Assembly (NCBI GenBank): GCA_944386885.1 | Contig: CALXCU010000151.1 | Location: 1 to 38,170, forward strand | Source of the DNA: an uncultured Oscillospiraceae bacterium | Lineage (GTDB): Bacteria; Bacillota; Clostridia; Oscillospirales; Oscillospiraceae | Length of the DNA stretch: 38,170 nt | Direction of reading: 5' to 3' | Position numbers and translations under genes: made by a program | Shown: piece after piece, positions 2,856-38,170 of the stretch | Numbering within the stretch: the first letter of the stretch is position 1 | Layout: every line of letters starts with the position of its first letter | The notes under the pieces: model-generated | What the model was told of the DNA's origin: nothing | Seen by the model: only the letters and a program-made list of their open reading frames with translations | The model's database searches: none

Positions 2856-2903
2856 ATACTGCTCCTTTCGGAATACGTCCGGGGCTGTGTTCCCCTGGAA
2901 GGG

Positions 2904-2935
2904 AGGCCGCCATCCCCGCACGGGGATGGCGGCCT
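2904..2935 (-). terminator. Strong hairpin between the S-layer protein gene and the YibE/F gene
   Basis: A perfect 14-bp inverted repeat (2904-2917 and 2922-2935) with a 4-base loop lies 29 bases past the stop of the S-layer gene. There is no U-rich tail on either strand, so it may be a weak terminator or an mRNA 3'-end stabiliser that lets some transcription continue into the YibE/F gene. Confidence 0.5.
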
Positions 2936-2963
2936 CCGAATCCCTAGGGATCCCGACAGGTTC

Positions 2964-5900
2964 TTATACGTTCACGAGGAAAAGATGAAGGACCGTAGCC
3001 GCCTGGGCTCTGGTGGACAGGCCCTGAGGCAGAAGCTGATTGTTGTCTGTCCCGTGAAGGACACCGGTCTCAACCGCCCAGCTCATGGCCTCAACCGCCC
3101 AGTCGCTGACCTGAGCGCCGTCGGCAAAGGCGGACAACTGGCCGGAGCCGGCCCCTTCCACACCCGCCATGCGGTAGAGCATGGCAACCATCTCTTCCCG
3201 CGTCACGGGGGCGTTGGGCGAGAAGGTAGTAGCGGAGGTGCCATAGATCACACCGGCCGCATTCAGATAGAGGACCGCATCGTAATACCAGCCCTCCTCC
3301 ACATCGGTGAAGGGGTTCTCCAGTCCATCCAGAGCGGCGGGGTCCACATCCAGCGCGCGGTACAGGATCGCGGCCAGCTCCGCGCGGGTCAGGGTGGCGT
3401 TCGGGGCAAAGGCGGTGCCGCCCACCCCCTGCATCAGGCCCGCCTCGGCCATGTAAGCCACATGCTCATAGTACCAGGCGTTCTCGTCCACGTCGGTGAA
3501 CACCGTGGGGGCCAGCGGAGTTTCCTCCTCGCCAATCTGGGTATCGCCGCCCTGGCTCTGGCCGGGCCGCGTCACCGTGGAGCCCACGTCGTCATCGTCG
3601 TCCGTCTGGGGAGGCACGGGGTCCGGCTCCTCAGAGGCCGTGCAGAGGATGTCCGCCCGGTCGCGCACGCGGATGCGGGCGTAGCTGTCATAGGCGATGG
3701 CATAGGTGTCGTCATAGGAGGCCAGGCCGGTTGCTTCGATCTCGCAGCCCACGGCCAGATCCTCAATCGTCTGATCGGAGGTGATGTAGCCGTCGATAAA
3801 CACACGGGCCACCTCGCCGGAGCCGTCCTGGACATAGATGGATTCCACCAGGCCGTTGGCCATGGTGATCTCCACCACACGGCCCTGGACCGTGACCAGC
3901 ATCCCCTCCACTGCGCGGCTGTTGAGTTCCGCCGCAGTGACCAGGGTGGGCGTCACGGGCTCCGCCTCGCCCACTTTTTCAATGGCGGTCACGGAGATCT
4001 GGGGTTCGCTCTGATAGGAAGAGGTCGTGCCAGTAATGCGCACCACGTCGCCCACCTGGTATTCCCCGTCCACCGGGAAGCAGTTGATGCCGCCCGTCTC
4101 ATCCTGCACATAGATGCAGTCGAAGAACGCGGTGTCCTGGTCGTAACCGGAGGCATTGGAGGTCACCACACCCTCAATGGTGAAGCGGTAGCCCTCACCA
4201 GACTGGGCCCGCACCTGGGCAATCGGGGTGATCTGGACCGGGTTGAGCAGCTCAAACAAGTTCTCGCACAGGGCGTTGTTGGCGTTCTCCGCCGGGATGG
4301 TCAGGTCGTAGTCGTTCATAAACGCCGCGCCAGAGACCAGGATGAGCCCCTTGCCCTCTTGCTGCTCCAGGGCCATGACCAGCAGGCGGCTGTCATCCTG
4401 GGCATAGGGGTACTTCACCGTCCCCTCGCCGCCCAGGCCGTCGCTATCGGCATCGGTGGAGACGGTCCCGGCATTGGCAAAGAGCACGGGAGTGACGGAG
4501 CTGGGCAGCGCATTGAGGACATTCCCCTCCCCGTCCACTGCGTAAAGGGAGGAGCCGCCGTAGTAGCTGAACAGGTCCTCTTCCGTCAGGCCGTCCGTAA
4601 GGGCGCTGGGGCCGTATGTGTTGAAGGAGAGGCTGAAGGTACTGCCCTCATAGGTGCCATCGTCGGACAGGCGCAGGGAGGAGCCAAGGGCCTCCAGAAG
4701 CCGGTTCTGAGTGGCGGCCATGTGGGGCTCGGCCTTGTCGTTGCTGTCTCCACCGCCGGTGACGATCAGCGCGCCGCCCGCCTCATGGAAGGCGGCCAGG
4801 GCCTCCAATTCCGCCTCCGAGTAATCCTTTGCCTCGGACAGGCGGCGGGAGGGGACGTTGAGCAGGATGGCGGCATACTTGCCGCTGCTGCATGCGGCGA
4901 TGAGATCCTCAGAGGTGGAGAGGAGCTCCACCCGGATGGCGGACTCGCCGGCCAGGGTCGTGAAGTTCGCCATCAGGTCCTTGTTGTAGCCGGACACATA
5001 CTCATTGCTGTGGGAGGCGTCCACACCGATGTAGGCCAGGGAACTGGCATCCTGGACATCCAGCTCAATGGAAGAGGTGAAGGTGTACTCCTTGCTCTCC
5101 AGCTCCACCACGACGGTGACGGTGATGGTAGCCAGCTTGGCCGCATCGGGCGTGTAGGCCCAGGTCAGGTCCAGAGACTCCCCGGCAGCCAGCGTATAGG
5201 CGGTGTTATCGGTCCAAAGGACCTCCGAACCGTTGGTGGTGTAGATGACGCTCTTGACCAGGGCGTCGGAGCCCTCGTCATTGTAGAGGGTGGTCTGGAT
5301 GTCCACCGCCTCGCCCGCGACGGGGGTGGTGCTGCTGGCAGTCACTTCAGAGATGCCCAGCATCAGGCTCTCGCCCACCCAGACAGGGGCCGTCACAGCC
5401 AGGTCGCCGTCGGCCTGGGTGACGCGGACGTAATAATAGGAGTACTCAGGGCTCAGGTCCGCGGTAAAGATGCCGGTGGAAAGGGACTCTGCATCCTCCC
5501 AAGTGTAGGCCACCTTGCCGGAGTTGACGATCAGCTCCACTTTGGAGATGGCGTCGGTGTCATCCGGGTCCATGACGGAGATGTCGAAGTGGAGGGTGTC
5601 GGGGACCGTCTCAATGATGGTGCCCATGGGCAGGTCATTGACGGAGTAGGTGATCTCCAGGTTTTTGTCCTCGGTGGAGTAGACCCGGTAGCTGCGGATG
5701 GCCTCGTAGATGGCCTCCTCCGAGAGCTCCTCGGCCAGGACCACGTCCCGGGCCTCGTTGGCATTGCCCCACTTGCCCTTGTGGTTATCCTGGTTGTTGG
5801 TGGGAGCCAGATGCCAGCCCTTGTCCAGAGCCAGCGTGTACTGCTCATAGCTGGGGTAGTAGCCGCTGGCGCCGATCTGGCCCTCGCCGTTGCCCACTTC

Positions 5901-21999: not shown

Positions 22000-23031
22000 T
22001 CACAGGACCTCGCGGGCGGCTTGTGAAAAAGCAGTCAGCTCTTCGTGAGTGGTATGGACCGAAATGGAGCAGTCCGGCGCCAGGAGGAAGGGAATGTCCT
22101 TCATCTTTTTCAAGGTCACCCGGGTCAGCTCGGCGATATGTCCGGCCTGATTCTGGCCAAAGGGGCGCTCGTCTACGCCGCCCATGGGGGTGATGCGCCC
22201 CAGCCAGCCGGGGGCGCTGTCCAGAGGCGGGTTGCCCGTGGCGCTCTCCGGCCAGTGGAGAATATCGATGGGATAATCTGCAAACCACTCGGGATTGCAG
22301 TAGATCCCGCAGTCGTGGACCATGATCTTACAGGGTTTGAGAGCCTCGATGAGCTCCAGATCATAGGGCCGGACGAATTCCTCCCACTCTTCGCGGGTGA
22401 GGTATCCCGTGCGGGAGAGGCCGGTGGCGGCATAGAACACGCCGTAAATGCCGGTCTTGACCAGCTCCTGGGCATAGGCGGCCAAAGTGCGGGTAATGTT
22501 GCGCAGGGCCGTGTGGACCTGCTCCGGGCAGGTCTGGATCAGTGTGACCATCAGATCCTCCCGGGTGGCCGTCCGGTAACGGCCGATGGAGTCCACCGCG
22601 CACATCTTCTGAAAGACCGCCGCGGGACAGAAGATGCTGGGGAAAACCGGTACGTCGTCCTCCAGGCCCTCTACAATCAGCCGGGCGGCCTCCACCTGCT
22701 CCGCCAACGGCGGGCTGGAGGCGGGCATCTCCACGATCTTTTCCAGATCGGCCGCGCAGGTGATGGGGGCTTTGGTGCAGGGGGCCACCACGCCGCCCCG
22801 GTAGTCGGCATAGTCGAACTCGCCGCCCCAGACCTCCTCATAATAGGTGGCCCGATTCTGGGCCTTCACATAGTCCCAGTCATATCTGCGCTGAAAAGCC
22901 AGCATAGAATCGGCAAAATCCTTGGCGCCGCTGTGCTCCGTCTCCAGGAAGTGGCGCCAGGCCGACACCGGCGGCCGGTCTGCCAGCTCCCCGCGGAGGA
23001 CCGCCTCCACCCGCTCTCGTTTGCTCCACAT
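22000..23031 (-). CDS. UroD-family protein of the MtaA/MtbA-like (cobamide methyltransferase) type
   Basis: The 343-residue protein belongs to the uroporphyrinogen decarboxylase fold family (PF01208). It shows the zinc-ligand pattern of the methylcobamide methyltransferases, H239-D-C241 and C321 (spacing H-x-C-x79-C). As recalled, methanol-type MtaA has the same arrangement at nearly the same positions. Haem-type UroD lacks it, so methyl transfer from or to a corrinoid is more likely than decarboxylation. No corrinoid-binding protein is encoded in the window, so the partner must be elsewhere. The start has GGAGGAATC upstream. It follows the ABC transporter genes by about 50 bases and starts the enzyme part of the operon. 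Uptake and demethylation of a methylated compound is a testable guess. Confidence 0.85.
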   Translation of the reverse strand: MWSKRERVEAVLRGELADRPPVSAWRHFLETEHSGAKDFADSMLAFQRRYDWDYVKAQNRATYYEEVWGGEFDYADYRGGVVAPCTKAPITCAADLEKIVEMPASSPPLAEQVEAARLIVEGLEDDVPVFPSIFCPAAVFQKMCAVDSIGRYRTATREDLMVTLIQTCPEQVHTALRNITRTLAAYAQELVKTGIYGVFYAATGLSRTGYLTREEWEEFVRPYDLELIEALKPCKIMVHDCGIYCNPEWFADYPIDILHWPESATGNPPLDSAPGWLGRITPMGGVDERPFGQNQAGHIAELTRVTLKKMKDIPFLLAPDCSISVHTTHEELTAFSQAAREVL

Positions 23032-23081: not shown

Positions 23082-24059
23082 CTATTGCGAATAAAGGAAG
23101 CAGGCCACGCTGTGGTCTTTTTCCACCGCCTTTAACTCCGGCCGCTCCGTCCGGCACCGCTGGGTGCAATGTTGACAGCGGGAGGCAAGCGGGCAGCCCG
23201 GCTGGCGCCCGATGGGGCTGGGAATATCCCCCTTGAGCTCGATCTGCTCTTTTTCCTCAAAGGGACTGCTGGGCGGGATGGCAGAGAGCAGCGCCTGCGT
23301 ATACGGGTGCAGCGGCCGCTGGTAGATATCCCCCGCCGGACACAGCTCCACAATATGGCCCAGGTACATGACCGCGATGGTGTCGCTGATGTAGCGGATG
23401 ACGCTCAGGTCGTGGGAAATGAACAGGTAGGTCAGGTGGAACTCCTGCTGCAGCCGGATGAGCAGATTGAGCACCTGGGCCTGCATGGACACATCCAAGG
23501 CCGAGACCGGCTCGTCGCACACCAAGAGCTCCGGTCCCACGGTCAGCGCCCGGGCGATGTTGATCCGCTGCCGCTGTCCGCCGGAAAACTCATAGGGATA
23601 GCGGTGCATGTGGTACTGATCCAGTCCCACCGCCTGGATCAGCTCCAGGGCCCGCTCCAGGCGGCTCATGCCCTCGGGCTGGATGTTATGGATGATAAAC
23701 GGCTCCATTACGCTCTGGGCCACCGTTTTGCGAGGGTCCAGAGAGGAATACGGGTCCTGGAAAATCATCTGGATCCTGCGGTGCATGTTCTTTCTTTCCT
23801 TGCCCCGCATCTGGGAGATATCCTGTCCGTCCAGAAAGATCTTCCCCTCTGTGGCCTTATGAAGGGAGACAATGCACCGGCTCAGGGTGGATTTCCCGCA
23901 CCCCGACTCGCCGATCACGCCCAGTGTCTCTCCCCGGTGGATCTGGAGGGAGACGTCGTCCAACGCATAGAGAAATTGCTTGCGCTCTCTATTTCTCCCT
24001 TGAATCGGGAATGTTTTGGTTAAATGCTCCACCTCCAACAAAACGTCGCGCTCAGCCAT
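23082..24059 (-). CDS. Oligopeptide/dipeptide ABC transporter ATP-binding protein (DppF-like)
   Basis: The 325-residue protein has the ABC ATPase set: Walker A GESGCGKST, Q-loop MIFQDPYSS, signature FSGGQRQRINIARAL, Walker B LLVCDEPVSALD and the switch His in ISHD. The C-terminal oligopeptide/dipeptide extension carries Cys and Arg residues (RCQHCTQRCR). It powers import with the two permeases and the second ATPase. The ATG at 24059 lies eight bases inside the end of the upstream DppD-like gene and has GGGGGGAAAG upstream. It is the last transporter gene of the operon. Confidence 0.95.
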   Translation of the reverse strand: MAERDVLLEVEHLTKTFPIQGRNRERKQFLYALDDVSLQIHRGETLGVIGESGCGKSTLSRCIVSLHKATEGKIFLDGQDISQMRGKERKNMHRRIQMIFQDPYSSLDPRKTVAQSVMEPFIIHNIQPEGMSRLERALELIQAVGLDQYHMHRYPYEFSGGQRQRINIARALTVGPELLVCDEPVSALDVSMQAQVLNLLIRLQQEFHLTYLFISHDLSVIRYISDTIAVMYLGHIVELCPAGDIYQRPLHPYTQALLSAIPPSSPFEEKEQIELKGDIPSPIGRQPGCPLASRCQHCTQRCRTERPELKAVEKDHSVACFLYSQ

Positions 24060-25065
24060 GCCGCTTTCCCCCCTCTCGCTCCAGCCTGTGCTCCCGGGTC
24101 TGGAGGAGGCAGGCCACACAGTGCCCATTCCCCAAATCTACCGGCTCCGGGACCACTTCTGCACACTGGGGCTGGGCATATTTACACCGGTCCCGGAAAT
24201 TGCATCCCTTCCCCACCAGGCGCAGGTCGGGCGGCATGCCCTCAATGGTGGACATGGGCTCCTTGGGCGTGTCGTTGAGGGCGGGCATGGAATCCATCAG
24301 CCCCCAGGTATAGGGGTGCATCGGGTTGGAATAGAGCTCCTTTACTGCGGCCTGCTCCACAACTCTGCCCGCATACATGACCATGACCCGGTCGCACATC
24401 TCCCAGACCACCCCCAAATTGTGGGTGATGAGCATAATGGCCGTATGGGATTCGGTCTGCAGCTGCTTCATGAGCTTCAAGATCTGGGCCTGCATCGTCA
24501 CGTCCAGGGCGGTGGTGGGCTCGTCGGCAATGATGAGCTTGGGCTTTCCGCACAGGACCATGGCAATGGCCACCCGCTGGCACATTCCGCCCGAGAGTTC
24601 AAAGGGATAGGAATTCAGCCGCTTCTCGGGGTCCGGGATACCTACCTTGCCCAGGGCCTCGGCGCTGATGCGCCGGGCCTCCTCCTTGGTAATGTTCTCA
24701 TGGGCCTGGATGGCTTCTACCATCTGATCGCCGATTTTGAAGACCGGGTCCAGCGTGGTCATGGGGTCCTGAAAGATCATGGCCACATCCTTGCCCCGGA
24801 ATTCCCGGAGCTGATTCTCATTCAGCGCGCGCACATCGGCTCCGTTGAAGTGGACCGTTCCGTCCACAATCTTCCCCGCCTTGCTGGCCAGCAGGCGCAT
24901 AATGGAGGCCGACATCACGCTCTTTCCGCACCCGGACTCCCCCACGATGCCCAGGGTCTCCCCCTCATCCACCGTGAAGCTCACGCCGTCCACCGCCTTG
25001 GAGATCCCGCTGGCGGTATAAAAATAGGTGCGCAGGTTTTTTACCTCTACCAAATGCTTGTCCAC
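24052..25065 (-). CDS. Oligopeptide/dipeptide ABC transporter ATP-binding protein (DppD-like), GTG start
   Basis: The 337-residue protein shows Walker A GESGCGKSV, signature LSGGMCQRVAIAM, Walker B LIIADEPTTALD and switch His in ITHN. It is followed by the Dpp/Opp C-terminal extension with CNFRDRCKYAQPQC, a cysteine-rich motif often seen in these ATPases. The GTG at 25065 is preceded by AGGAGGGAG. It pairs with the DppF-like ATPase and overlaps it by eight bases, so the two are made in equal amounts. Confidence 0.95.
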   Translation of the reverse strand: MDKHLVEVKNLRTYFYTASGISKAVDGVSFTVDEGETLGIVGESGCGKSVMSASIMRLLASKAGKIVDGTVHFNGADVRALNENQLREFRGKDVAMIFQDPMTTLDPVFKIGDQMVEAIQAHENITKEEARRISAEALGKVGIPDPEKRLNSYPFELSGGMCQRVAIAMVLCGKPKLIIADEPTTALDVTMQAQILKLMKQLQTESHTAIMLITHNLGVVWEMCDRVMVMYAGRVVEQAAVKELYSNPMHPYTWGLMDSMPALNDTPKEPMSTIEGMPPDLRLVGKGCNFRDRCKYAQPQCAEVVPEPVDLGNGHCVACLLQTREHRLEREGGKRHG

Positions 25066-25077
25066 ACGCGCTCCCTC

Positions 25078-25983
25078 CTAGCGTTTCATCTTGGGGTCCA
25101 GCGCATCGCGGATTCCGTCGCCCGTCAGGTTGAAGCCCAGCACGGCCAGCAGAATAAAGGCGCCGGGCAGAAAGGCCACGTGGGGCGCGGTCCCCAGGAA
25201 GGAGTTACCCGCCCGGAGGATATTCCCCCAGGAAGGGGTGGGGGCAATGATGCCCAGCCCCAGGAAGCTCAGGCCCGCCTCGGAGAGGATGGCGCTGGCA
25301 ATGTTCAGTGTGAAGTACACGATAATAGGGGACATGGCGTTGGGGAGGATGTGCCGGATAACCAAGCGCAGATGGGAGGCCCCCAGGACGCGTTCTGCGT
25401 TGCAGTACTCCTCATTCTTTAGAATCGTGACCTGTCCCCGCACCACGCGGGCGAATTTGGGCAGGCTGCTGATCCCCAGTGCCAAAATCACATTGAGCGC
25501 CCCATTGCCCAGTACAGTCACTAAGACGATGGAGAGCAGGATCGACGGGAAGGCAAACATGCCGTCTACGATCCGCATAAGGACAGAGTCCACCGCGCCC
25601 CCCGCATAGCCGGCCACCAGGCCCACGACCAGGCCCAGAAGGCATCCCACTACGCTGGCCCCGGCTGCGATGATGATGGAGGTCCGGGAGCCGTAGATAA
25701 TGCGCGCGAACAGATCCCGACCGAACTCATCCGTACCGAACAGGTGGCCAGGCGAGAGGGGGGGCAGCAGGCGGTTCGGCAGGTCCAGTTCGTTGGGCGA
25801 CTGCTGTGCCACCAGGGGCGAAAACACGGCGATGAACACCATGAACGCCACGATGATCAGACCCACTACCGCCGCGCGGTTCCGGCAGAATTTCCGCCAG
25901 AGGCTGTTGGCCTTTTCCTCCCGTTTGAACAGCGCCTCGCTGGATATGGCGCGCTCGGAAGCCGCTGTATTGGTCGTATTCAT
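25078..25983 (-). CDS. Dipeptide-type ABC transporter permease (DppC-like)
   Basis: The 301-residue membrane protein has an N-terminal hydrophobic helix (VVGLIIVAFMVFIAVFSPLV) and the DppC landmark FGTDEFGRDLFARIIYGSRTS. It ends with several TM segments and the coupling motif EAGLSFLGLGIIAPTPSWG. It forms the membrane channel with the DppB-like subunit. The start has GGGGTGAACC upstream. It is 12 bases from the DppB-like gene and 12 from the ATPase gene. Confidence 0.95.
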   Translation of the reverse strand: MNTTNTAASERAISSEALFKREEKANSLWRKFCRNRAAVVGLIIVAFMVFIAVFSPLVAQQSPNELDLPNRLLPPLSPGHLFGTDEFGRDLFARIIYGSRTSIIIAAGASVVGCLLGLVVGLVAGYAGGAVDSVLMRIVDGMFAFPSILLSIVLVTVLGNGALNVILALGISSLPKFARVVRGQVTILKNEEYCNAERVLGASHLRLVIRHILPNAMSPIIVYFTLNIASAILSEAGLSFLGLGIIAPTPSWGNILRAGNSFLGTAPHVAFLPGAFILLAVLGFNLTGDGIRDALDPKMKR

Positions 25984-25995
25984 GGTTCACCCCCC

Positions 25996-26937
25996 CTAAA
26001 TCTTGACTTTGGGCTGGATCAGCATGTAGAGGATATCCATCAGCAGGCTGATCACAACGTTTACCACTGCCAGCGTCAGGATAGCCCCCTGCACCAGGGC
26101 GTAATCCCGGGTGTTGATAGCGGTGGAGATCAGCGTCCCCATCCCGGGCCAGGAGAAGATATTCTCCGTCATAATGGCGCCGGAGAAGGAGATGCCCAGC
26201 TGCACGCCAAGGATGGAAATAATGGGCGGCAGGGCGTTTTTAAACGCGTGCTTCCAGATGATCCGCCGCTCCTTCACACCTCTGGCCCGCAGCGCCCGGA
26301 TGTAGTCGTTGTTGATGGTATCCAGCATGCTGGAGCGGGTGGTGCGGGTGAAAGTGGCCATAGGAGCCAGCGCCAGGCAGAGGCAGGGCAGGAGCATATG
26401 GGAGGCTACATCGCCAATCCCCTGGTCCAGAGACCCCATCCCCATCACCGGGAGCAGTCCCAGCTGGACGCTGAAGACAAAGATGCTCATGATTGCGATC
26501 CAGAAGACCGGCATGGACGCCCCCAGCAGGGCAAAAAAGGTACATAGGTGGTCGATGATGGAATTCTGCCGCAGGGCAGACACCGTCCCCAGCACAATTC
26601 CACCCACCAGCGCAATGATCAGTCCTGTAAAGGTAATCAGCAGCGTCTTGGGGATCCGGTCCAGAATTAGGCTGAACACGGGCTCGTTATAATTTAGTGA
26701 AGTTCCAAAATCACCCCTGCATATATCGCTGACATACATGACAAACTGTTCCGGGATGCTCTTATCCAGACCCAGGCTGGCCTGCAGCTCTGCAATCACC
26801 TGGGGATCAGCCTCGGGGCCGGCCAGCACGGAGACCGGATCGCCTGGGATGACGCGTGTGATCACAAAGGTAATGGAGACAACGATCAGCATCGTAGGAA
26901 TCAATTGAAGAAGACGTTTCCATACTAAGCGCAGCAT
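25996..26937 (-). CDS. Dipeptide-type ABC transporter permease (DppB-like)
   Basis: The 313-residue protein begins with a membrane helix (RLLQLIPTMLIVVSITFVI) and contains the DppB signatures FVITRVIPGDPVSVLAG and DYIRALRARGVKERRI. About six TM segments are visible, and it ends with NVVISLLMDILYMLIQPKVKI. It is the partner of the DppC-like permease. The start has AGGTGGG upstream. It lies 26 bases after the substrate-binding protein gene. Confidence 0.95.
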   Translation of the reverse strand: MLRLVWKRLLQLIPTMLIVVSITFVITRVIPGDPVSVLAGPEADPQVIAELQASLGLDKSIPEQFVMYVSDICRGDFGTSLNYNEPVFSLILDRIPKTLLITFTGLIIALVGGIVLGTVSALRQNSIIDHLCTFFALLGASMPVFWIAIMSIFVFSVQLGLLPVMGMGSLDQGIGDVASHMLLPCLCLALAPMATFTRTTRSSMLDTINNDYIRALRARGVKERRIIWKHAFKNALPPIISILGVQLGISFSGAIMTENIFSWPGMGTLISTAINTRDYALVQGAILTLAVVNVVISLLMDILYMLIQPKVKI

Positions 26938-26963
26938 ATCTGACCCACCTATCTGTGATCGGG

Positions 26964-28631
26964 TTACGGTTCTTTCCAGGCGTTATAGGTCTCGCCATTG
27001 CAGATGAGGAACCAGTTGTCAAAATCGGTCATGTGGACTCCCTTGCGCACGCCCCAGCAGGGATACTGGTCGGCAAACCAGATGCCCGGGCAGTCCTCCA
27101 TGGCCATTTCCAGCAGCTGGTGATAAATCTCAGTCCGCTCCGCCTGATCGGTGATGGCCAGGGCCTCCAGGTTCAGCGCGTCCCACGCCTCATTAATATA
27201 GGGGCCTGGATTATAGGAGGCATGAGCCTTGGAGGAGTCAAAGCTGTAGCCCAGGGAGAAGGCCGGGTCGGTGGAAGAGGCGGTGATGCCGCCCAGATAC
27301 AGCTCGCCGTTGCCCGAGTGGACCTTGTCGTTGTAGGTGGCGGTCTCGGTGGCATCCAAGATCACGTCCACATTCAGATTTTCCTTCCACAGCTGCTGGA
27401 GCACCACGCCGATGCGGTCCCGCTCCACCGAGGCGGCATAGCTCAGGGTGATCTCAAAACCGTCCGGATAGCCGGCCTCCGCCAGGAGCTGCCGGGCGGC
27501 TTCGGGGTCGTAGTCGGGCACCAGATCCTGAAGAGACTCGTCATAGGCCCAGGAATTCTGGGGCAGGGGGATTTTGGTGTACTCCGCGGTCCCGTCTGCA
27601 AAGGCGGCGTCGATGAGGGCCTGGCGGTCGGTGGCCATGGACAGCGCCTGGCGTACCCGCAGGTCGGTGGTGGGGCCGTTCTCATAGCTGAAGGCGATGG
27701 TGTTCATCTGTACCTTGTTCAGGGACACCAAGTCCAGATTGGGGTCGTCCAGGACCTGCTGGAGGGAGTCACTGGACAGCGACAGGGCCAGATCGATCTC
27801 CCCGGTGATGAGGGCATTGAGACGCTGGTTGGCGTCCTGGATCACTTTGAAAACCACTTTGTCTAAGTACGGGCGGTTGCCCCAGTAGTTCTCATTGCGG
27901 ACCATGGTGGTCTGCTGGTCAATCTCGTGGCTCTCCAGCTGGAACGCGCCGGTGGAGATCACATGAGCGCCGAACTCATCTCCCCAGCCCTCCACCTCTT
28001 CCTGAGGAACGATGATGAAGTTGGGCAGGGTGATCTCGTAGAGCAGCGTGGCCGTGGGCTGATAGAGGGTGAATGTGACTTCGAACTCGCCGGTGGCCTC
28101 CACTTTTTCCACAAACCCCAGCGTATTGTTTACATGCTCTTTGTTGCGCATAAAGGAATAGGCCACGTCCTCTGCGGTCATCAGGCGTCCATCCTGGTAT
28201 TCGCCCTTTTGGAAATGCACGTCGTCCCGCAGCTGGAACACCCACTGCAGACCGTCCTCACTGGTCTCCCAAGAGGTGGCCAGATTGGGGAGAAATTCTC
28301 CCTTGCCCTCGGGATCGTGGATGATCAGCGTGTCGCCCAGTTGTTGGCAGACCACATAGGCATTGTAGCCGGAGATCCGCAGCGGATCCAGCGAAGTAGG
28401 GGCTTTGTCCATGGAGATGGTCAGCGTCCCCCCTTCCACCGGTTCCGCCGACCGGCTCTCTTCCAGCTTGTCCAGGGCAGCTACGGGCGTTCTGCCCGTT
28501 CCGCTCTCTCCGGCACTGTTCTCGGGCTCCTGCGTGCCGTCGGCGCCGCATCCGCCGACGGCTGTAAATAAGAGCGCAGACGCCACCAAGAGTGACATGA
28601 GCTTCTTCGGGGAAAAACCAGTCTTCGCCAT
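26964..28631 (-). CDS. Extracellular solute-binding lipoprotein, family 5 (peptide/nickel type)
   Basis: The 555-residue lipoprotein has a signal peptide with lipobox FTAVGGC, so Cys28 should be lipid-modified. A Ser/Gly-rich linker follows, then the family-5 solute-binding fold: GGTLTISMDKAPTSLDPL, WVFQLRDDVHFQ, DLRVRQALSMATDRQALI and AGYPDGFEITL. It catches the ligand outside the membrane and feeds the Dpp-like permease. Family members bind peptides, opines, nickel chelates and other compounds, so the ligand is open. It is the first gene of the operon. A promoter lies about 100 bases upstream and a LysR gene is divergent. Confidence 0.95.
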   Translation of the reverse strand: MAKTGFSPKKLMSLLVASALLFTAVGGCGADGTQEPENSAGESGTGRTPVAALDKLEESRSAEPVEGGTLTISMDKAPTSLDPLRISGYNAYVVCQQLGDTLIIHDPEGKGEFLPNLATSWETSEDGLQWVFQLRDDVHFQKGEYQDGRLMTAEDVAYSFMRNKEHVNNTLGFVEKVEATGEFEVTFTLYQPTATLLYEITLPNFIIVPQEEVEGWGDEFGAHVISTGAFQLESHEIDQQTTMVRNENYWGNRPYLDKVVFKVIQDANQRLNALITGEIDLALSLSSDSLQQVLDDPNLDLVSLNKVQMNTIAFSYENGPTTDLRVRQALSMATDRQALIDAAFADGTAEYTKIPLPQNSWAYDESLQDLVPDYDPEAARQLLAEAGYPDGFEITLSYAASVERDRIGVVLQQLWKENLNVDVILDATETATYNDKVHSGNGELYLGGITASSTDPAFSLGYSFDSSKAHASYNPGPYINEAWDALNLEALAITDQAERTEIYHQLLEMAMEDCPGIWFADQYPCWGVRKGVHMTDFDNWFLICNGETYNAWKEP

Positions 28632-30197: not shown

Positions 30198-31403
30198 ATG
30201 GCCGATTTGATCGCCACGCTTTGTCACCAGGCGGCCCGTCAGGCCGCCGGATGGAGGCACTGGCTCCATGAGCGGCCTGAACTGAGCTTTCAGGAATTTG
30301 AGACCACTGCTTTTATCGAGGCGCAGCTCCGCTCCTTCGGCGGGATCGAGATCCGGCGGCCCACTCCCACCGGTGTAGTGGGTGTCCTCCGGGGAGGGCG
30401 GCCGGGCAAGACCACAGCCTTCCGGGCGGATATCGACGCGCTGCCCATCCAGGAGGACCCCGCCCTGGAGCCTCATTCCCAGCGGGACGGCGTGATGCAT
30501 GCCTGCGGGCATGACGGGCACACCGCCACCCTCCTGGCCACCGCCAAGGTTCTTAGCCAGCTGCGGGATCAGGTGTCCGGGACGATCCTCTTCCTGTTTC
30601 AGCCCGCGGAAGAGTGCCCTCCCGGCGGCGCGGCGGCCTTTGTTCAGGCGGGCGTGCTTCAGGGGGTGGATCTGATCTTCGGCATGCACTATCATGTGCC
30701 CGAAGACCCCGGCGTCTTTCTGGTCAAGCCCGGTCCTCTCTTTGCCTCCACCTACTCCTTTGATGTGGAGCTTCTGGGAAAAGGCGCCCACGCCGCCTTC
30801 CCCCAGACCGGTGTGGACACCGTCCTGCTGGCCGCCCATGTCGTGACGGCCCTCAACGAGCTCATTCCCCGGTGTATTGATAACCGCTGCCGGGCCGTCC
30901 TGACGGTCACAGGCATCCAGAGCCCCCGCACTTACAACAGCATGCCCGACGCCGTCTCCCTCCAGGGCACCATCCGCATTCTGGACCGCACCTGTGAGGC
31001 GCTTCTGCTCACCCGGGTCCGGGAGGTGATCGAGGGGCTCTGCCACACCTACCGGGCCCATTGCAAGATCGACCTTCGGAAAGGTTACGATCTGGTCGAG
31101 AGCACCCCCGCCCTGGCAGAGGCCGTACGCCGGGTCCTTGTGCGCTGTTTCGGAGAAGAACATGTGGTAGAACCCACACCGCTTATGGGCGGGGAGGATT
31201 TTTCCGCCTATCTCAAGGTGGTCCCCGGCTGTTATTTCCGCGCCGGGACCCGAAAGCGCAAGCCCGACGGCAGCGTCTCCCCGCCCCACTCCAGTACCTA
31301 TGAATTCAACGACGACTCCCTCCCATACGCGGTAGAGGCCCAGGTCCGGGTCCTCCTGGAGGTCCCCGCCCAAGTGGGGAGCGGCGGTCAGGAAGGAGAT
31401 TGA
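30198..31403 (+). CDS. M20D family amidohydrolase/peptidase
   Basis: The 401-residue protein is a metal-dependent amidohydrolase of the M20D type. It has the signature MHACGHDGHTA with Cys and His ligands, FLFQPAEECPPGGAA with the Glu pair, FGMHYHVPE, PLMGGEDFSAYL, and a final His in SPPHSSTYEF. Relatives remove acyl groups from N-acyl amino acids and conjugates such as N-acetyl-diaminopimelate or IAA-amino acids. The exact substrate is unknown. The start at 30198 has AGGGAGGG upstream; an ATG five bases earlier is out of frame. It precedes the cysteine-desulfidase-like gene by five bases and probably supplies its substrate (inference). Confidence 0.93.
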   Translation: MADLIATLCHQAARQAAGWRHWLHERPELSFQEFETTAFIEAQLRSFGGIEIRRPTPTGVVGVLRGGRPGKTTAFRADIDALPIQEDPALEPHSQRDGVMHACGHDGHTATLLATAKVLSQLRDQVSGTILFLFQPAEECPPGGAAAFVQAGVLQGVDLIFGMHYHVPEDPGVFLVKPGPLFASTYSFDVELLGKGAHAAFPQTGVDTVLLAAHVVTALNELIPRCIDNRCRAVLTVTGIQSPRTYNSMPDAVSLQGTIRILDRTCEALLLTRVREVIEGLCHTYRAHCKIDLRKGYDLVESTPALAEAVRRVLVRCFGEEHVVEPTPLMGGEDFSAYLKVVPGCYFRAGTRKRKPDGSVSPPHSSTYEFNDDSLPYAVEAQVRVLLEVPAQVGSGGQEGD

Positions 31404-31408
31404 CGGCT

Positions 31409-32683
31409 ATGGATTCATCCATTGTGCAGGCATACATTCAGATCCTTCAGGAGGAGTTGGTGCCCGCCCTGGGCTGTACCGAGCCCATTGCCATCGCCTA
31501 CGCGGGCGCCAAGGTCCGGGAAGTCCTGGGGCGCATGCCCGATGCCATTGAAGTTTTTTGCAGCGGCAACATCGTGAAGAATGTGAAAGGGGTCACGGTA
31601 CCCAACTCCGGCGGCCTGCGCGGGATTGAGGCAGCGGCCATCCTGGGTGTTGTCGGCGGAGATGCCGGGCGGCAGCTGGAGGTTTTAGAAGCCGTCTCCG
31701 AGCCGGACATCCGGCAGACGGAGGCGCTGCTCAAGCAGCCCTACTGCACCTGCCACCTGGCGCAGGACGTGGACAACCTCTATGTGCGCATTGCCGCTTC
31801 CGCCGGCGGAGAAAGCGCCTGTGTGGAGCTCCAATCCCACCACACCCATATTACCGAGGTGACCAAAAACGGCCGTGTGCTCTTCTCCCAGCCGGCGGAC
31901 GGCGAGGGTGCGGCACAGGCCGACAAATCCCTCTTAAATGTGCGGGACATTTTCACATTCGCCCAGGAAGCCGACCTCTCCCCTCTGGAAGATACCTTAG
32001 AGCGGCAAATTCAGATGAACACCCGCATCGCCCAAGAGGGCCTCTCCCACCCCTACGGAACCCAGGTGGGACGCACGCTGCTCAAGCATTATGACCCCTC
32101 TGATGTGCGCGTCCGCGCCCGGGCTCTGGCGGCGGCAGGGTCAGATGCCCGGATGAACGGCTGTCCTCTGCCTGTGGTCATCAATTCTGGCAGCGGAAAT
32201 CAGGGCATGACGGTCTCTCTCCCCATCATCACCTATGCCGAGGCCCTAAACGCCGGGCGTGATACCCTTCACCGCGCCCTGGCTCTGGGCAATTTGATCG
32301 CCATTCTCCAAAAGTATTACATCGGCAGCCTGTCCGCCTTCTGTGGGGCGGTCTGCGCCGGCACCGGCGCCGCCTGCGGCATCTGCTATCTTCACGGAGG
32401 CGGATACGAGGACCTGGCCCGAACCATCACCAACACCCTCTGCAATGTGGGCGGGATGATCTGTGACGGGGCCAAGTCCTCCTGTGCCGCCAAGATTGCC
32501 GCCGCAGTGGACGCCGGTATCCTGGGCTTCCTGATGGCCTTTGAAGAGAAAAACGCCTTCCAGCCCGGCGAGGGTCTGGTCCAGGCGGATGTGGACCGGA
32601 CCATCCAGAGCGTAGGCCGGGTTGGGCGCGTCGGGATGCACGCCACCGATCTGGAGGTATTGAATATTATGCTGGGCCGCTGA
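31409..32683 (+). CDS. L-cysteine desulfidase/serine-dehydratase-like protein (UPF0597, CyuA-like)
   Basis: The 424-residue protein matches the UPF0597/CyuA family: ELVPALGCTEPIAIAYAGA with C23, FCSGNIVKNVKGVTVPNSGG, INSGSGNQGMTVSLPI, and GGMICDGAKSSCAAK. Family members are iron-sulfur enzymes that break down L-cysteine to pyruvate, ammonia and sulfide, or are predicted L-serine dehydratases. The several cysteines agree with a cluster. The ATG at 31409 was chosen because GGAAGGAG is ten bases upstream; an earlier TTG would leave no spacing. It is in an operon with the M20D amidohydrolase, which suggests breakdown of acylated or peptide-bound cysteine-like compounds (inference). Confidence 0.9.
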   Translation: MDSSIVQAYIQILQEELVPALGCTEPIAIAYAGAKVREVLGRMPDAIEVFCSGNIVKNVKGVTVPNSGGLRGIEAAAILGVVGGDAGRQLEVLEAVSEPDIRQTEALLKQPYCTCHLAQDVDNLYVRIAASAGGESACVELQSHHTHITEVTKNGRVLFSQPADGEGAAQADKSLLNVRDIFTFAQEADLSPLEDTLERQIQMNTRIAQEGLSHPYGTQVGRTLLKHYDPSDVRVRARALAAAGSDARMNGCPLPVVINSGSGNQGMTVSLPIITYAEALNAGRDTLHRALALGNLIAILQKYYIGSLSAFCGAVCAGTGAACGICYLHGGGYEDLARTITNTLCNVGGMICDGAKSSCAAKIAAAVDAGILGFLMAFEEKNAFQPGEGLVQADVDRTIQSVGRVGRVGMHATDLEVLNIMLGR

Positions 32684-32747
32684 GCCGCCCTCTATCATCC
32701 CGCCGGATGATTCCCGGAGGCTTCTTTCCGGCTTTTCCGTGCAAAGA

Positions 32748-32777
32748 TTGTCGAATCCCCTCGAGGTGTGCTATAAT
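32748..32777 (+). promoter_or_regulatory. Promoter of the PucR-type regulator gene
   Basis: TTGTCG (32748-32753) and a perfect TATAAT (32772-32777) are 18 bases apart. They lie just upstream of the AGGAGG site (32787-32792) and the ATG at 32805, so the leader is short. The gap after the CyuA-like stop also holds a weak hairpin with a T run, which is not called separately. Confidence 0.7.
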
Positions 32778-32804
32778 TGCCTCAAAAGGAGGCGGCATCT
32801 CTCT

Positions 32805-34217
32805 ATGATGGCAGATCGGATCAAGCAGTGTTTGGAGGCGGCCGGATACCAGGTCCACTATTCCGGTCCGGCAGACATGGAGTTTTATGCGGTGGATCAG
32901 TATGGCCATGCAGAGCCGGAGCCCAATGTCCTCTACCTGGCCGCTCCGGGTGAATCCACCGGACGAAACGGCGTTGGCCTTCTCGTGCTGGAATCCCCGG
33001 CGGAGGCCAGCCGCGTGCAGGCGCTTTTGCAGCACATTTTTGTCGCGGAGCTGCGCCTGCGGGACCATTTCTCCAGATTGGCCCAGGCGGTCTCCGAGGG
33101 CTGCGGGATCTATGAGCTCTGCCGGTCTCTGGCCCGCCTTCTGGACTGCCCGGTGCTGCTGCTGGACCACCGGCTGGAGGCGGTCTGCCGCCATCCGGAA
33201 GCCGCCTGGAGCGCGCAGGAGACGGCTCGCCTGGCCCGGCAGGTGGAGGATTGGCGCCGTTCCTCCGGCGGCAGCGCACCCCGGCCGCCCGCCGGCTATC
33301 TTTTCCGGGAAATCTGTTACACAGGGGCAGATTATTACCTCTGTTTGCCGGAAGCAGCTCCGCCCGTGCCCGGCAGCAACAGGGCGGAGATCCTGGATCA
33401 GGTCTGCGCGCTGCTGACCCCCTCTGCTTCCCCAAAAGAGGACCACCGGGCGGCCCTGCTCACCGGACTGCTGCTCCGGCGCTTTCCCCTGACCGCAAAG
33501 GAGCGGGAGCGGCTGGTGGCGCTGGGGTGGAAGAAGCAGGAGAAATATTATCTCTTGGCGGTGGGCTGCCCTGAAGAGGACCGCGCCCTCCAAACCGAGC
33601 TGCGCCGCATCCTTCACACCGACTGCTATCCGGTCGGGAACTATCTTGTGTGCTTTCTCTCCTCTTCGCCCTATCTGGAACATACCGAACAGGATTTTCC
33701 CCAGCTGACCCGGTTTTTAAAGGAGCATGGGCGGCTGGGGATCCTCAGCATAGGCTTTTTTGACTTGGCCGACTGCGCCGCCGCCTTTGAGCAGTGCCGG
33801 ACCTGTATGGAAATCGCCCAGGAGAACCGATACACCGCCGGGCTGCGCTACTGCGGCCGCTACCAGATGACTCAGATCCTGCGTATCCTTCTCCGGGAGC
33901 ACCAAATCGACCTGAAGCAGTACTGCAGTCCCATTATTTTGCAGCTCTACGCCCTGGACCAGGCCCAGAACACCCATTATCTGGACACACTCTTCACCTA
34001 TATCTGCTCTGGACAGTCGGTAAAGCAGACCGCGGCAGCCATGGATCTGCATGTAAATACCGTGTATACGCGTGTCAGCTACCTGAAAGACCAGTTCAAA
34101 ATCGACTTCAACGACGCGCATATGCTCTACACCCTGCACAACTCGATCGTCATTCTCCATGTCACCTGTGGCCCCGGTATTCTCCATAGCGGCTGGCCCT
34201 TCCTGCCCGATGGATAG
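32805..34217 (+). CDS. PucR family transcriptional regulator
   Basis: The 470-residue protein has a C-terminal PucR-type helix-turn-helix (PF13556 type): LDTLFTYICSGQSVKQTAAA, MDLHVNTVYTRVSYLKDQF. The N-terminal part has a segment like the PucR N-terminal sensor, and a central region with CGIYELCRSLARLLDCPVLL. Such regulators control purine, amino-acid or amine catabolism. Its position just before the component-B module suggests it controls that module. A palindrome touching the -35 box of that promoter may be its site (inference). The start is one of two consecutive ATGs (32805 or 32808). Confidence 0.88.
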   Translation: MMADRIKQCLEAAGYQVHYSGPADMEFYAVDQYGHAEPEPNVLYLAAPGESTGRNGVGLLVLESPAEASRVQALLQHIFVAELRLRDHFSRLAQAVSEGCGIYELCRSLARLLDCPVLLLDHRLEAVCRHPEAAWSAQETARLARQVEDWRRSSGGSAPRPPAGYLFREICYTGADYYLCLPEAAPPVPGSNRAEILDQVCALLTPSASPKEDHRAALLTGLLLRRFPLTAKERERLVALGWKKQEKYYLLAVGCPEEDRALQTELRRILHTDCYPVGNYLVCFLSSSPYLEHTEQDFPQLTRFLKEHGRLGILSIGFFDLADCAAAFEQCRTCMEIAQENRYTAGLRYCGRYQMTQILRILLREHQIDLKQYCSPIILQLYALDQAQNTHYLDTLFTYICSGQSVKQTAAAMDLHVNTVYTRVSYLKDQFKIDFNDAHMLYTLHNSIVILHVTCGPGILHSGWPFLPDG

Positions 34218-34248: not shown

Positions 34249-34288
34249 ATGCGGCGGATGCAGTGAAACCTGCATCCGCCGCATTTTT
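34249..34288 (+). terminator. Intrinsic terminator of the PucR gene
   Basis: A perfect 15-bp stem (34249-34263 and 34270-34284) with a 6-base loop is followed by four T residues, about 30 bases past the stop. Confidence 0.92.
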
Positions 34289-34402: not shown

Positions 34403-34486
34403 TTTCTCACTGGAAGATAATGCAATTTACCCAAACCCTTGGGTGGGTCCAGCCCTCCACCAACCGTCAGAAAGGAGCTTGTGCGA

Positions 34487-35794
34487 ATGAAATTAGACAT
34501 CGGAACATTTCACGTCAAGGACATCCGTTTCGGCGATCAGACATCCTATGCCGGCGGGGTCTTGACCGTGAATCGTGAGGAAGCCGCCGCCGTCCTCAAC
34601 CGGGATGGGGCGCTGAAGAAGGTCCGCCTGGAAATCGCCCGGCCTGGGGAGAGCGTCCGCATCATCCCCATCAAGGCGGCGGTGGAACCCCGCTTCCGCC
34701 CCGACGGCCGCGCCATGTTCCCCGGATACACAGGCCCGGCCGCCTTTGCCGGTGAGGGTGTCACCTACGCCCTCAAAGGCATGTCGGTCCTGGGGGTGGG
34801 CTGCCGCTCCATCAACGGGATGAACGCCATGCTCGATATGTCGGGCCCCGGCGCAGAGCAGTCCTATTTCTCCCAGCTAAACCAGCTGATTTTCCTGGCG
34901 GAAAATGCCGACCCAGGCGAGGACAACATCCGCCAGGAGAACCAGAATTTCGTCCGGGCCGCCCATGTGCTGGCCGAATATCTGGCCGCCGCCGTGAAAG
35001 ATCTGGAGCCGGAGGCCTGGGAGCATTACGACTGGGCCGACGTGTCAGAACAACACCTGCCCCGGGTAGCGTTCCTCCAACAGCAATGCAATATCCCCAA
35101 CTGGATCCACGGCTGTTCCTATTATGGCTATGACCTGACCGGCGTGCCCACCACCCTGGTCAAGCCCCTGGAGAGTCTGGACGGAGCCCTCACCGGCGAC
35201 CGCGGTTCTCTGCCGGGAAATGCCGTGCGCACCACCTATTCCTATTTGAACGCGCCGCTGGTTAAGCGCCTGCTGGCCGAGCACGGGAAGACCCTGGACT
35301 TCGTGGGCATCCTCATGACGGGACACATCGAGCCCATCGACCAGAAAAAGCAGTATGCCCACATCATCGTCAGCGCGGCCACCAGCCTGCACCTGGACGC
35401 GGCCATCTATATGGAATCCCACTGCGGCAATGTGGATGTGGACTACATGATGACCATGGCCGCCCTGGAAGATGCGGGGATCAAGACGGTCGGCATCTTG
35501 GCCGAAAACAATGGCCGGGACGGGCGCAACCCGGGCAAGACCTACGCCGACCCCAAGGCGAACGCCATTGTATCCACCGGCAATACCTGCGAGGTGTACG
35601 AGCTGCCCCCCATGGACGTGGTGTATGGCAATCTGAATACCATCGGGCAGGAGCTCTACTGGGGCGCCTGGCGGGACGATGCGGTCTGCGGACCCTCCCT
35701 GCGGAAGGACGGCTCCTTAATCGTGGACGCCCACATGTTTCTGGACCACGACGGCCTTCTGGGCTGGTCGGATAAAACCGTGAAGGATTTTTGA
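34487..35794 (+). CDS. Glycine/sarcosine/betaine reductase component B alpha/beta-type protein (GrdE/G/I-like), pyruvoyl cysteine absent
   Basis: The 435-residue protein aligns by eye along its length with GrdE-type proproteins. Shared features are FHVKDIRFGDQTSYAGGVL near the start, LEIARPGESVRIIPIKAAVEPRF, DMSGPGAEQSYFSQLN, LDGAL..., AEHGKTLDFVGILMTGHIEP, and GRDGRNPGKTYADPKA with VSTGNTC. In the component-B enzyme, GrdE is cleaved at a Cys that becomes a pyruvoyl cofactor for Schiff-base binding of the amine substrate. Here the matching stretch, D232-G-A-L-T-G-D-R-G-S241-L-P-G-N, has no cysteine. It may be uncleaved, use Ser241, or bind a substrate without a free amine. The start has AAAGGAG upstream. 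The gene is 16 bases from the selenoprotein gene. Confidence 0.88.
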   Translation: MKLDIGTFHVKDIRFGDQTSYAGGVLTVNREEAAAVLNRDGALKKVRLEIARPGESVRIIPIKAAVEPRFRPDGRAMFPGYTGPAAFAGEGVTYALKGMSVLGVGCRSINGMNAMLDMSGPGAEQSYFSQLNQLIFLAENADPGEDNIRQENQNFVRAAHVLAEYLAAAVKDLEPEAWEHYDWADVSEQHLPRVAFLQQQCNIPNWIHGCSYYGYDLTGVPTTLVKPLESLDGALTGDRGSLPGNAVRTTYSYLNAPLVKRLLAEHGKTLDFVGILMTGHIEPIDQKKQYAHIIVSAATSLHLDAAIYMESHCGNVDVDYMMTMAALEDAGIKTVGILAENNGRDGRNPGKTYADPKANAIVSTGNTCEVYELPPMDVVYGNLNTIGQELYWGAWRDDAVCGPSLRKDGSLIVDAHMFLDHDGLLGWSDKTVKDF

Positions 35795-35810: not shown

Positions 35811-37112
35811 TTGAAACCAGTCATCGCATATGTCAATCAGTTTTTCGGCCAGATCGGCGGCGAGGACAAGGCCGACTACGCCCCTGAGCTGCGCACCGGG
35901 GCGGCCGGCCCCGCCCAGGCCCTCCAGGCCCAGCTGAAGGACGCGGAGATCACCCATACTATCATCTGCGGCGACAATTTTATGGCCAGCCATACCGAAC
36001 AGGCCCTGGAGCAGATCGCCGGATTTTTGAAGGAGCTGGACTGTGCCCTGCTGGCAGCGGGCCCAGCTTTCAACGCCGGGCGCTACGGCTTCAGCTGCGG
36101 CGAGGTTTGTAAGCTGGCCTGGGAGCGCTTCCACATCCCCGCACTTACCAGTATGAACGAGGGAAACCCCGGCGTGGAGCTCTACCGGAAGAGCGCTTAC
36201 ATCCTGAAAGGGCACGATACCGCCGCCGGCATGCGCAAAGATGTAGCCGCTATGGCCGCCCTGGCCAACAAGCTGCTGGCAGGTGAGCCCCTGCTGGGCG
36301 CCGATGCGGAGGGCTATTTTGGGCGCGGCATCCGGAAAGAAGTCATTTTGAAGGACCACAGATCGGCCGCTGACCGGGCTGTGGATATGCTGCTCCACAA
36401 GCTCCGGGGGGAGCCCTTCCAGACGGAGTTCCTGGTGGAGCAGGAGGACCGGGTACCCCCCCTCCCGCCGGTCGATCCCAGCAAGCTGCGCATCGCCTTC
36501 GTCACCACTTCCGGCCTGGTGCCCGCCGGGAACCCAGACCACCTCCCCTCCGGCGGCTCCACCTTCTGGGCCCGCTATGAGATCGGGAACCGGGAGACTT
36601 TGGAGAAGGGGGAATTTATTTCGGTGCACGGCGGCTACAACACCGGTTACGCCGCAGAAAATCCCATGGTGCTCCTGCCGCTGGACGCCCTGAAGCAGCA
36701 TGTCCGGGACGGGCATATCGGCTCCCTGCACCCCTACTACTATGTGCTCACCGGAAACCAGACCGCCAAGGGCGACGCGGTGCGCATGGCGCGGGAGATC
36801 GTCGCCAAAGTCCGGGAGGACGCCGTTCAGGCCATCATTCTGGGCTCCACGTGAGGAACCTGTACTCGTTGCGGTGCAATGATGGTCAAAGAAATCGAAA
36901 AATCCGGCATGCCCGTGGTCCACATGGCCAATATGACCCCAGTCGCCCAGGGAATCGGCAGCAACCGGATCGTAAAAACCTATGGGATCTCCTTCCCCAT
37001 GTTCGATCCCAACGCCACGCCGGAGGCCCAGAAACAGCAGCGCTATGAGCTGGTCGGACGGGCCCTGAAGGCGCTGAACACCCCCGTCCAGGAGTCCACC
37101 GTATTTGAATAG
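35811..37112 (+). CDS. Selenoprotein: glycine/sarcosine/betaine reductase component B gamma-type (GrdB/F/H-like)
   Basis: The frame runs for 433 residues from a TTG at 35811 (GGAGGG upstream) to a TAG at 37110, through an in-frame UGA at codon 348 (36852-36854). The surrounding motif S-T-U-G-T-C-T-R-C-G is the active-site selenocysteine motif of GrdB-type proteins. The rest continues normally (VKEIEKSGMPVVHMANM, VAQGIGSNRIV). Family landmarks are also present: QFFGQIGGEDKA, AGPAFNAGRYGFSCGE and FVTTSGLVPAGNPD. The Sec attacks the substrate and passes a carboxymethyl group to GrdA. A SECIS-like hairpin follows the UGA. The GrdB, GrdF and GrdH branches could not be told apart, so the substrate is open. 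An automatic caller would split this gene at the UGA. Confidence 0.93.
36852..36881 (+). promoter_or_regulatory. In-frame UGA (selenocysteine) with bacterial SECIS-like hairpin
   Basis: The UGA at 36852-36854 is followed by a 6-bp stem (CGTTGC 36867-36872 with GCAATG 36876-36881, one G-U pair) and the apical loop GGT. The loop begins 18 bases after the UGA. A short stem with a G/U loop at this distance is the bacterial SECIS layout recognised by SelB. Confidence 0.8.
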
Positions 37113-37153: not shown

Positions 37154-38170
37154 ATGTCAGAGGACAAAACGACCCGTAAAAGCTACTATTATGTCATCAT
37201 TGCGGCCTGTGGTATTCTATTGGGCGTCGTGTTCATGGGGCAGGCAAACCTGTACTCCCCCATCGCCCCGTTCCTTCGGGAGAGCTTTGGCCTGAGCTAT
37301 ACTCAGACCTCCATCATCTCCACGGTGCAGAACCTCTGTTCCGTGCTGGCCACCCTGATGATCACCACCGTCTATGATAAGCTGGGGGTGCGCCGGGGCC
37401 TGCTGGTGCCGCTGATCTGCGGTGTGGCGGGGGCGCTGATGTTCTGTGTGGCCAGCAATTTCGTCATGCTCTGCATCGCCGCCGGCCTGGGCTACCTCTG
37501 CTTTGGCCTGGGCGGTATGATGCCCGCCTCCCTGATTATGAACCGCTGGTTCGTCAAACGCAAAGGCCTGGTGCTGGGCCTGTGCTCCGCGGGCTCCGGT
37601 GTGACGGGCATGCTGCTCTCCGGCTGGCTGGCCACCCGCGTGGCGGAACACGGCATCGCCGCCGGTGAGATCGTTGTGGCCGCCTTTGTGGGCGTGGGCG
37701 GCCTGCTGGCCATTCTCTTCCTGCGCAATACGCCGGAGGAGATGGGCATGCGCCCCTATGGCGCCGACGAGGGCGCCTCCGCCCAGGTCAAGAAAAAGAA
37801 AACCGGCTATGTCAGCGTCAAGCCCCTCTCGGCCCAGTCCAAATTCCTCTTCGGTGCGGCGGTCGTCTGCTGCGGGTTTACCGGCTTCGGCGCTATCCCC
37901 AACTTCACCATGGCGGCCACCGCCATCGGCTACGATCCCGTATTTATCGGCGGCCTGGCCGGTATGACGGGGGCCCTGGCTATTGTGGGGAAACCTCTCT
38001 ACGGCGCGCTGGCCGATGCAATCGGCGCCTTTAAGGCCAATTTCGTCTACATGACCCTGGTAGCCGCCGCCGATCTCCTGCTCTTCCTGGCCCGGCCCGG
38101 CATGGATCTCTCCCTGTACGCGGTGGTGGTCATTTTCGGGATGGGCTGCTATGCGATCACCACGGTAGGC
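37154..38170 (+). CDS. MFS transporter (N-terminal part, cut by window edge)
   Basis: The frame is open from the ATG at 37154 (AGAGGG upstream) to the window end, 339 codons. It has the major-facilitator layout with at least ten hydrophobic segments. MFS motif A is present as YDKLGVRRGLLVP, and later GALADAIGAFKAN in the second half. The long central loop contains VKKKKTG. It resembles oxalate/formate (OxlT)- or monocarboxylate-type MFS proteins. Lying 41 bases after the selenoprotein stop, it probably moves the substrate or product of the reductase module across the membrane. The C-terminus is outside the window. Confidence 0.88.
   Translation, partial: MSEDKTTRKSYYYVIIAACGILLGVVFMGQANLYSPIAPFLRESFGLSYTQTSIISTVQNLCSVLATLMITTVYDKLGVRRGLLVPLICGVAGALMFCVASNFVMLCIAAGLGYLCFGLGGMMPASLIMNRWFVKRKGLVLGLCSAGSGVTGMLLSGWLATRVAEHGIAAGEIVVAAFVGVGGLLAILFLRNTPEEMGMRPYGADEGASAQVKKKKTGYVSVKPLSAQSKFLFGAAVVCCGFTGFGAIPNFTMAATAIGYDPVFIGGLAGMTGALAIVGKPLYGALADAIGAFKANFVYMTLVAAADLLLFLARPGMDLSLYAVVVIFGMGCYAITTVG

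Follow-up and report, generated by a model that had tools for sequence, protein, structure and literature searches.

The glycine reductase family has protein B components for several substrates, which deliver to the same proteins A and C (PMC10838667). According to the family descriptions in PMC10838667 and, for proline reductase, PMC3091704, the selenocysteine of the B selenoprotein attacks the alpha carbon of the bound substrate; in glycine reductase, the carboxymethyl group then passes to proteins A and C (PMC10838667). A carbonyl group has been proposed to hold glycine, sarcosine, and proline by their amines. The pyruvoyl group of C. difficile GrdE was shown by mass spectrometry to derive from a cysteine (PMC9908766), and the same source finds carbonyls in GrdB as well as in GrdE, predicts that the unlocated GrdB carbonyl binds glycine, and suggests that the GrdE pyruvoyl keeps GrdB active. 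FarE, the corresponding subunit of fluoroacetate reductase, is described as lacking the two cysteines and, like the betaine reductase subunit GrdI, as not being a proprotein (PMC10838667).

The stretch of DNA analyzed here (the window; 38,170 nucleotides) is one whole contig of a draft genome (2.38 Mb; 181 contigs). It carries a grdI-like gene (34487..35794, forward strand; stop codon at 35792-35794), whose 435-amino-acid product is assigned by Pfam, by phylogeny, and by shared insertions to the alpha/beta subunits of glycine/sarcosine/betaine reductase component B; the match to PF09338 (Gly_reductase) scores 358.1 bits (cut-off, 22.2) over residues 1 to 433. We placed the start at the ATG at 34487, which coincides with the beginning of the family alignment, and not at the TTG at 34439 given in the list of open reading frames (ORFs), which yields 451 amino acids. 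Sixteen bases past the stop codon begins a grdH-like gene for a selenoprotein B (35811..37112, forward strand; TTG start, 433 residues), with an in-frame UGA (36852..36854, forward strand) read as selenocysteine at residue 348, the UxxCxxC motif kept (STUGTCTRCGA), and a SECIS_4 element (RF01990; 36855..36892, forward strand; 58.3 bits; gathering score, 38) directly after the UGA. This partner passes TIGR01918 (512.7 bits; cut-off, 65.45), and its best NCBIfam profile is that of GrdH (NF040795; 570.2 bits, below the cut-off of 775). It is less divergent than the grdI-like protein, reaching about 52% identity to the relatives fetched and keeping 80 of 101 columns that are conserved across its best 109 relatives (a set of mixed type, 109 of 118 with over 350 bits, from which matches with fewer than 380 aligned residues had been excluded). 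The full-length Pfam match and the gene order, subunit then selenoprotein, are common to this pair and to GrdE/GrdB and GrdG/GrdF, the glycine and sarcosine forms of protein B.

The segment of the grdI-like protein that corresponds to the region of the pyruvoyl-forming cysteine in GrdE and GrdG reads DGALTGDRGSLPGN (residues 232 to 245; 35180..35221, forward strand) and contains no cysteine. A sequence-only reading of this DNA had reported this absence and had held that the flanks still align, and both observations stand: 21 GrdE/GrdG-type relatives have SGNCV at the site, and in the translation TTYSYLNAPLVKRLL and AEHGKTLDFVG flank it as described. We examined all six cysteines of the protein (at 106, 201, 210, 313, 368, and 401), each of which lies away from the site, and this rules out a displaced processing cysteine. 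A frame error at the site is likewise ruled out by the translation and by the G+C content at the three codon positions, which is close to that of the neighboring genes (third position, 0.81). An AlphaFold model built with 80 sequences has a mean pLDDT of 86.9 and a pTM of 0.90, with residues 241 to 250 at only 67. Searches of PDB chains by sequence (phmmer, E of 0.01) returned no match for either the grdI-like protein or its selenoprotein partner, and Foldseek returned none in PDB at an E of ≤0.001, so a template for the active site of the grdI-like protein is missing.

The sequence-only reading had further taken a site without cysteine to be exceptional, which comparison across the family does not bear out. 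The alignment (matches aligned over fewer than 300 amino acids and exact duplicates removed; 135 kept, 129 distinct with the window protein included) shows no cysteine at the site in 95 of 95 GrdI-type rows (GSFMP), in 8 of 8 FarE-type rows (a short RYWE loop), and in four other rows, where NY or NA stands instead; the first two of these counts, like that for SGNCV, follow in part from the naming, because the groups were named by the motif at the site (SGNCV for GrdE/GrdG, GSFMP for GrdI, and RYWE for FarE). Independent support for the group names comes from an annotated GrdG, from one GrdI locus in which an annotated grdH lies next to a BCCT transporter gene, from the BCCT genes beside most GrdI, from the NCBIfam FarE profile by which the FarE loci were found (nine loci, eight of them distinct, with one of the eight just below the cut-off), and from the tree. 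Whether GrdG and GrdI generally lack the cysteine, a question on which the earlier argument had been made to hang, has a divided answer: GrdI does, in all 95 rows, whereas the annotated sarcosine reductase GrdG of Peptoclostridium acidaminophilum has SGNCV. Because the GrdI and FarE rows lack the cysteine and PMC10838667 describes both proteins as other than proproteins, its absence is a known property of betaine and fluoroacetate subunits; for the betaine branch it is the normal state, and by itself no sign of an odd enzyme.

To place the grdI-like protein, we sampled every third (32) of the 95 GrdI for one tree and every fifth (19) for a smaller one, from which four long rows outside the named groups were also omitted. 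The protein joins the 32 sampled GrdI at 100/100, and the GrdI without it form one side of a branch supported at 88/94 (98/98 in the smaller tree). Insertions of 3, 2, and about 8 amino acids are common to the grdI-like protein and GrdI and are absent from the GrdE/GrdG and FarE rows printed. Identity is 39 to 43.5% to the 95 GrdI and 30 to 36% to the 21 GrdE/GrdG, which, unlike the window protein, keep the cysteine. No NCBIfam GrdI model is among the matches of the grdI-like protein, which scores below threshold against GrdG (224 bits) and FarE (NF053623; 125.6 bits against a cut-off of 675), and two GrdI proteins that we scanned show the same subthreshold pattern (GrdG, 345 and 366 bits; FarE, 172 and 162 bits). 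We assign the protein with high confidence to the GrdI type, an unprocessed class.

What is unusual is how far this protein has drifted, the missing cysteine itself being ordinary. Among 189 columns that are the same in at least 95% of GrdI, 84 are changed and 105 kept, whereas the same count for the 95 GrdI, made by leaving out one at a time, gives 0 to 12 changed (median, 1). Columns conserved in both GrdI and GrdE/GrdG are affected as well (20 of 75), and GrdI-conserved stretches have been lost both around the site and elsewhere. The protein sits on a very long branch (1.99), and the tree program cautions about long-branch joins. At the site, TGDRGSLPGN stands against SGSFMPxSSK in GrdI and does not match that motif; the loop is one residue longer than that of GrdI, which makes the register of the alignment uncertain here.

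Downstream of the pair, 41 bases after the grdH-like gene, a gene for an MFS transporter (37154..38170, forward strand) runs off the end of the contig and, the gap being so short, is probably cotranscribed with the pair. Its product is weakly similar to the lactate, bile salt, and oxalate/formate MFS profiles, all far below their cut-offs, a match of little help in naming the substrate. No counterpart was found in 80 GrdI loci at an E of 1e-8. A BCCT transporter is encoded in 68 of these 80 loci; of the 69 with 3.5 kb or more of downstream sequence, 63 have one. The window ORFs of at least 60 amino acids include no BCCT, GrdA, GrdC, GrdD, or TrxB, and the contig ends 2.4 kb past the grdI-like gene. 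Upstream lies a gene for a PucR-type regulator with a C-terminal HTH_30 domain (32739..34217, forward strand), a possible regulator of the operon. Between it and the grdI-like gene is a terminator-like hairpin of 15 perfect pairs followed by Ts (34249..34284, forward strand), the longest of four such sites in the region, where 2.6 are expected by chance. Upstream of the PucR-type gene, a serine dehydratase alpha-chain family protein (31400-32683, forward strand) adjoins an M20-family amidohydrolase (30198-31403). Elsewhere in the window, a URO-D-family protein (22000-23031, reverse strand) adjoins an apparent peptide-type ABC transporter operon (23082-28631), of which the binding protein alone was scanned.

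The explanation that we favor, and consider somewhat better than even, is a divergent subunit of the GrdI lineage that stays uncleaved, pairs with the GrdH-like selenoprotein, and acts on a substrate, probably other than betaine, that does not form a Schiff base. As a highly divergent member of the betaine reductase type of substrate-specific protein B, the grdI-like protein would form protein B with the adjacent selenoprotein and, as in GrdI, would probably be neither cleaved nor furnished with a pyruvoyl group. The substrate, held noncovalently, would be a small carboxylate that is substituted at the alpha position, carries a good leaving group, and has no Schiff-base-forming amine; selenocysteine 348 of the partner would attack its alpha carbon, and the carboxymethyl selenoether would be handed on to GrdA, to be released as acetyl phosphate by way of protein C. 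The same genome encodes a GrdA with TGA, a relative of GrdC (59% identity), and SelB (389.6 bits; cut-off, 242).

That the enzyme may stay uncleaved and that its substrate may be unable to form a Schiff base had both been suggested from the sequence, and both suggestions are supported by the nearest kin, since GrdI (acting on betaine, a quaternary amine) and FarE (acting on fluoroacetate) also lack the cysteine and are called unprocessed in PMC10838667. The missing cysteine would imply chemistry without a Schiff base, and the drift of the protein suggests a different substrate; other points toward another substrate are the adjoining MFS gene, the absence of BCCT from the window ORFs, and an ordinary-looking GrdI elsewhere in the genome (on contig C90). 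Our confidence in a substrate other than betaine that forms no Schiff base is moderate only, because the carbonyl that binds glycine may be that of GrdB and not the GrdE pyruvoyl (PMC9908766). Weighing against the favored explanation as a whole are the length of the branch, the outcome of the topology test given below, and the broken look of the betaine system on C90. Because glycine-type and betaine-type genes and an apparent sarcosine-type selenoprotein are present in the genome besides this strongly divergent, probably unprocessed GrdI-type pair, the pair suggests an electron acceptor that is still to be assigned.

The strongest competitor, which we regard as unlikely but well worth weighing, is a fast-evolving subunit of glycine betaine reductase in which the substrate has stayed the same, the sequence has drifted, and the transporter is another. 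GrdI/GrdH, the protein B of betaine reductase, resembles the window pair in lineage (by tree and by the three insertions), in length, in a site without cysteine, and in having a UGA/SECIS selenoprotein with UxxCxxC, and the window partner is nearest the GrdH profile, with its identity of up to 52% to fetched relatives. The genome itself adds to this case: the GrdH on C90 keeps only its first 84 or so residues, which run on in frame into the C-terminal half of a BCCT transporter (2824-3792 of the fetched locus), by either a real deletion or a fault of assembly, so the ordinary betaine system looks broken in this assembly, and its role in betaine reduction might have passed to the window pair. 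Such a history fits poorly with the loss of 84 of 189 conserved columns at an identity of at most 43.5%, with a site that has departed from the GrdI motif, and with the transporter genes, an MFS beside the window pair and a BCCT beside GrdI, as in 63 of the 69 longer loci.

A reductase that resembles FarE and acts on a halogenated acid or some other nonamine acid, whether derived from the GrdI branch or, with lower likelihood, kin of FarE, strikes us as improbable. FarE/FarB, the protein B of fluoroacetate reductase, likewise lacks the pyruvoyl cysteine and is adjoined by a transporter gene, farA, for an MFS protein of the oxalate/formate antiporter type (PMC10838667), as an MFS gene follows the window pair; moreover, in an AU test on the smaller tree, a clade of the window protein with FarE was not rejected (P = 0.243). 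That clade is nevertheless disfavored because of the insertions shared with GrdI, which the FarE rows printed do not have, and identity to the eight FarE is only 25 to 28%, the FarE site being a shorter RYWE loop. The partners differ too, FarB being described as without CxxC (PMC10838667), which the window selenoprotein keeps. Of the five FarE regions fetched, one has an ORF that matches the window MFS (25% identity over 172 amino acids) and four have none, and no radical SAM protein was found among the neighbors scanned, whereas PMC10838667 places a radical SAM gene in the far operon of MFA1. Membership in FarE proper is ruled out by the NCBIfam FarE score together with the GrdI insertions; the tree alone would leave kinship with FarE possible.

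A decaying or inactive paralogue, for which the very long branch, the many conserved residues lost, and the lack of any close ortholog among our searches could speak, is quite improbable to us given that both frames are open with a composition like that of the neighboring genes, that the SECIS element scores 58 bits, and that 80 of 101 conserved columns are intact in the partner.

Serine-derived pyruvoyl groups occur in some classical pyruvoyl decarboxylases, and the sequence might be read, as the sequence-only reading had also proposed, as one in which Ser241 (codon at 35207-35209, forward strand) replaces the cysteine, with cleavage between Gly240 and Ser241. In alignments of the full set, Ser241 faces the GrdE cysteine under five of six MAFFT settings (a gap under the sixth), and a glycine precedes it; with the window protein and GrdE/GrdG only, the facing residue is Ala246 under five settings and Gly240 under one, so the placement of the loop is ambiguous. 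The lineage of the grdI-like protein lacks a cysteine at the site, and we found no ortholog in which conservation of Ser241 could show, which together make this reading very improbable. Least probable of all is its extended form, a betaine-type selenocysteine reductase on a new substrate class with Gly240-Ser241 replacing Asn-Cys as the scissile pair, which would mean that processing was regained through another residue in a lineage without it.

No search returned a relative of the grdI-like protein above about 43% identity, although the pattern-based scans can miss some. A contig scan with the protein alone gave seven pattern matches, none confirmed; a scan with the alignment gave 405, from which 264 relatives were confirmed, the best 80 of these 264 being at most 43% identical. 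Since such scans need short exact patterns, absence from them is no proof. In whole-genome searches of 200, 394, 391, 10, and 3 genomes (partly the same ones; E limits of 1e-10, 1e-70, 1e-80, 1e-10, and 1e-10, respectively), the best other match was at 43%, and in a plasmid collection six records matched, the best at 40.9% identity. The titles and abstract beginnings of the literature searched describe no GrdI so divergent.

The genome to which the window belongs holds several further members of the family. Glycine-type GrdE/GrdB are encoded on contig C28 and the start of a GrdE-family gene on C157, and C116 carries part of a selenoprotein for which the sarcosine GrdF profile is the nearest (657 bits, below the cut-off of 800 over its partial length). 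On C171 there is another paralogue without the cysteine (NYIIAC), accompanied by its own selenoprotein; with fewer than 300 amino acids aligned, it was among the matches removed from the 129-sequence set. Two deep members without the cysteine, from genomes G103 and G149, join the FarE side of the tree and have the sites WNAMKAID and NKNYNNSINA. In other GrdE-family paralogues lacking it, NY stands at the N-C position (SRNYIIACQK on C171; SGNYVWPAFK and SANYIIACQK in genome G078); frames for GrdB-type selenoproteins lie near these NY paralogues, which are possibly further types of protein B.
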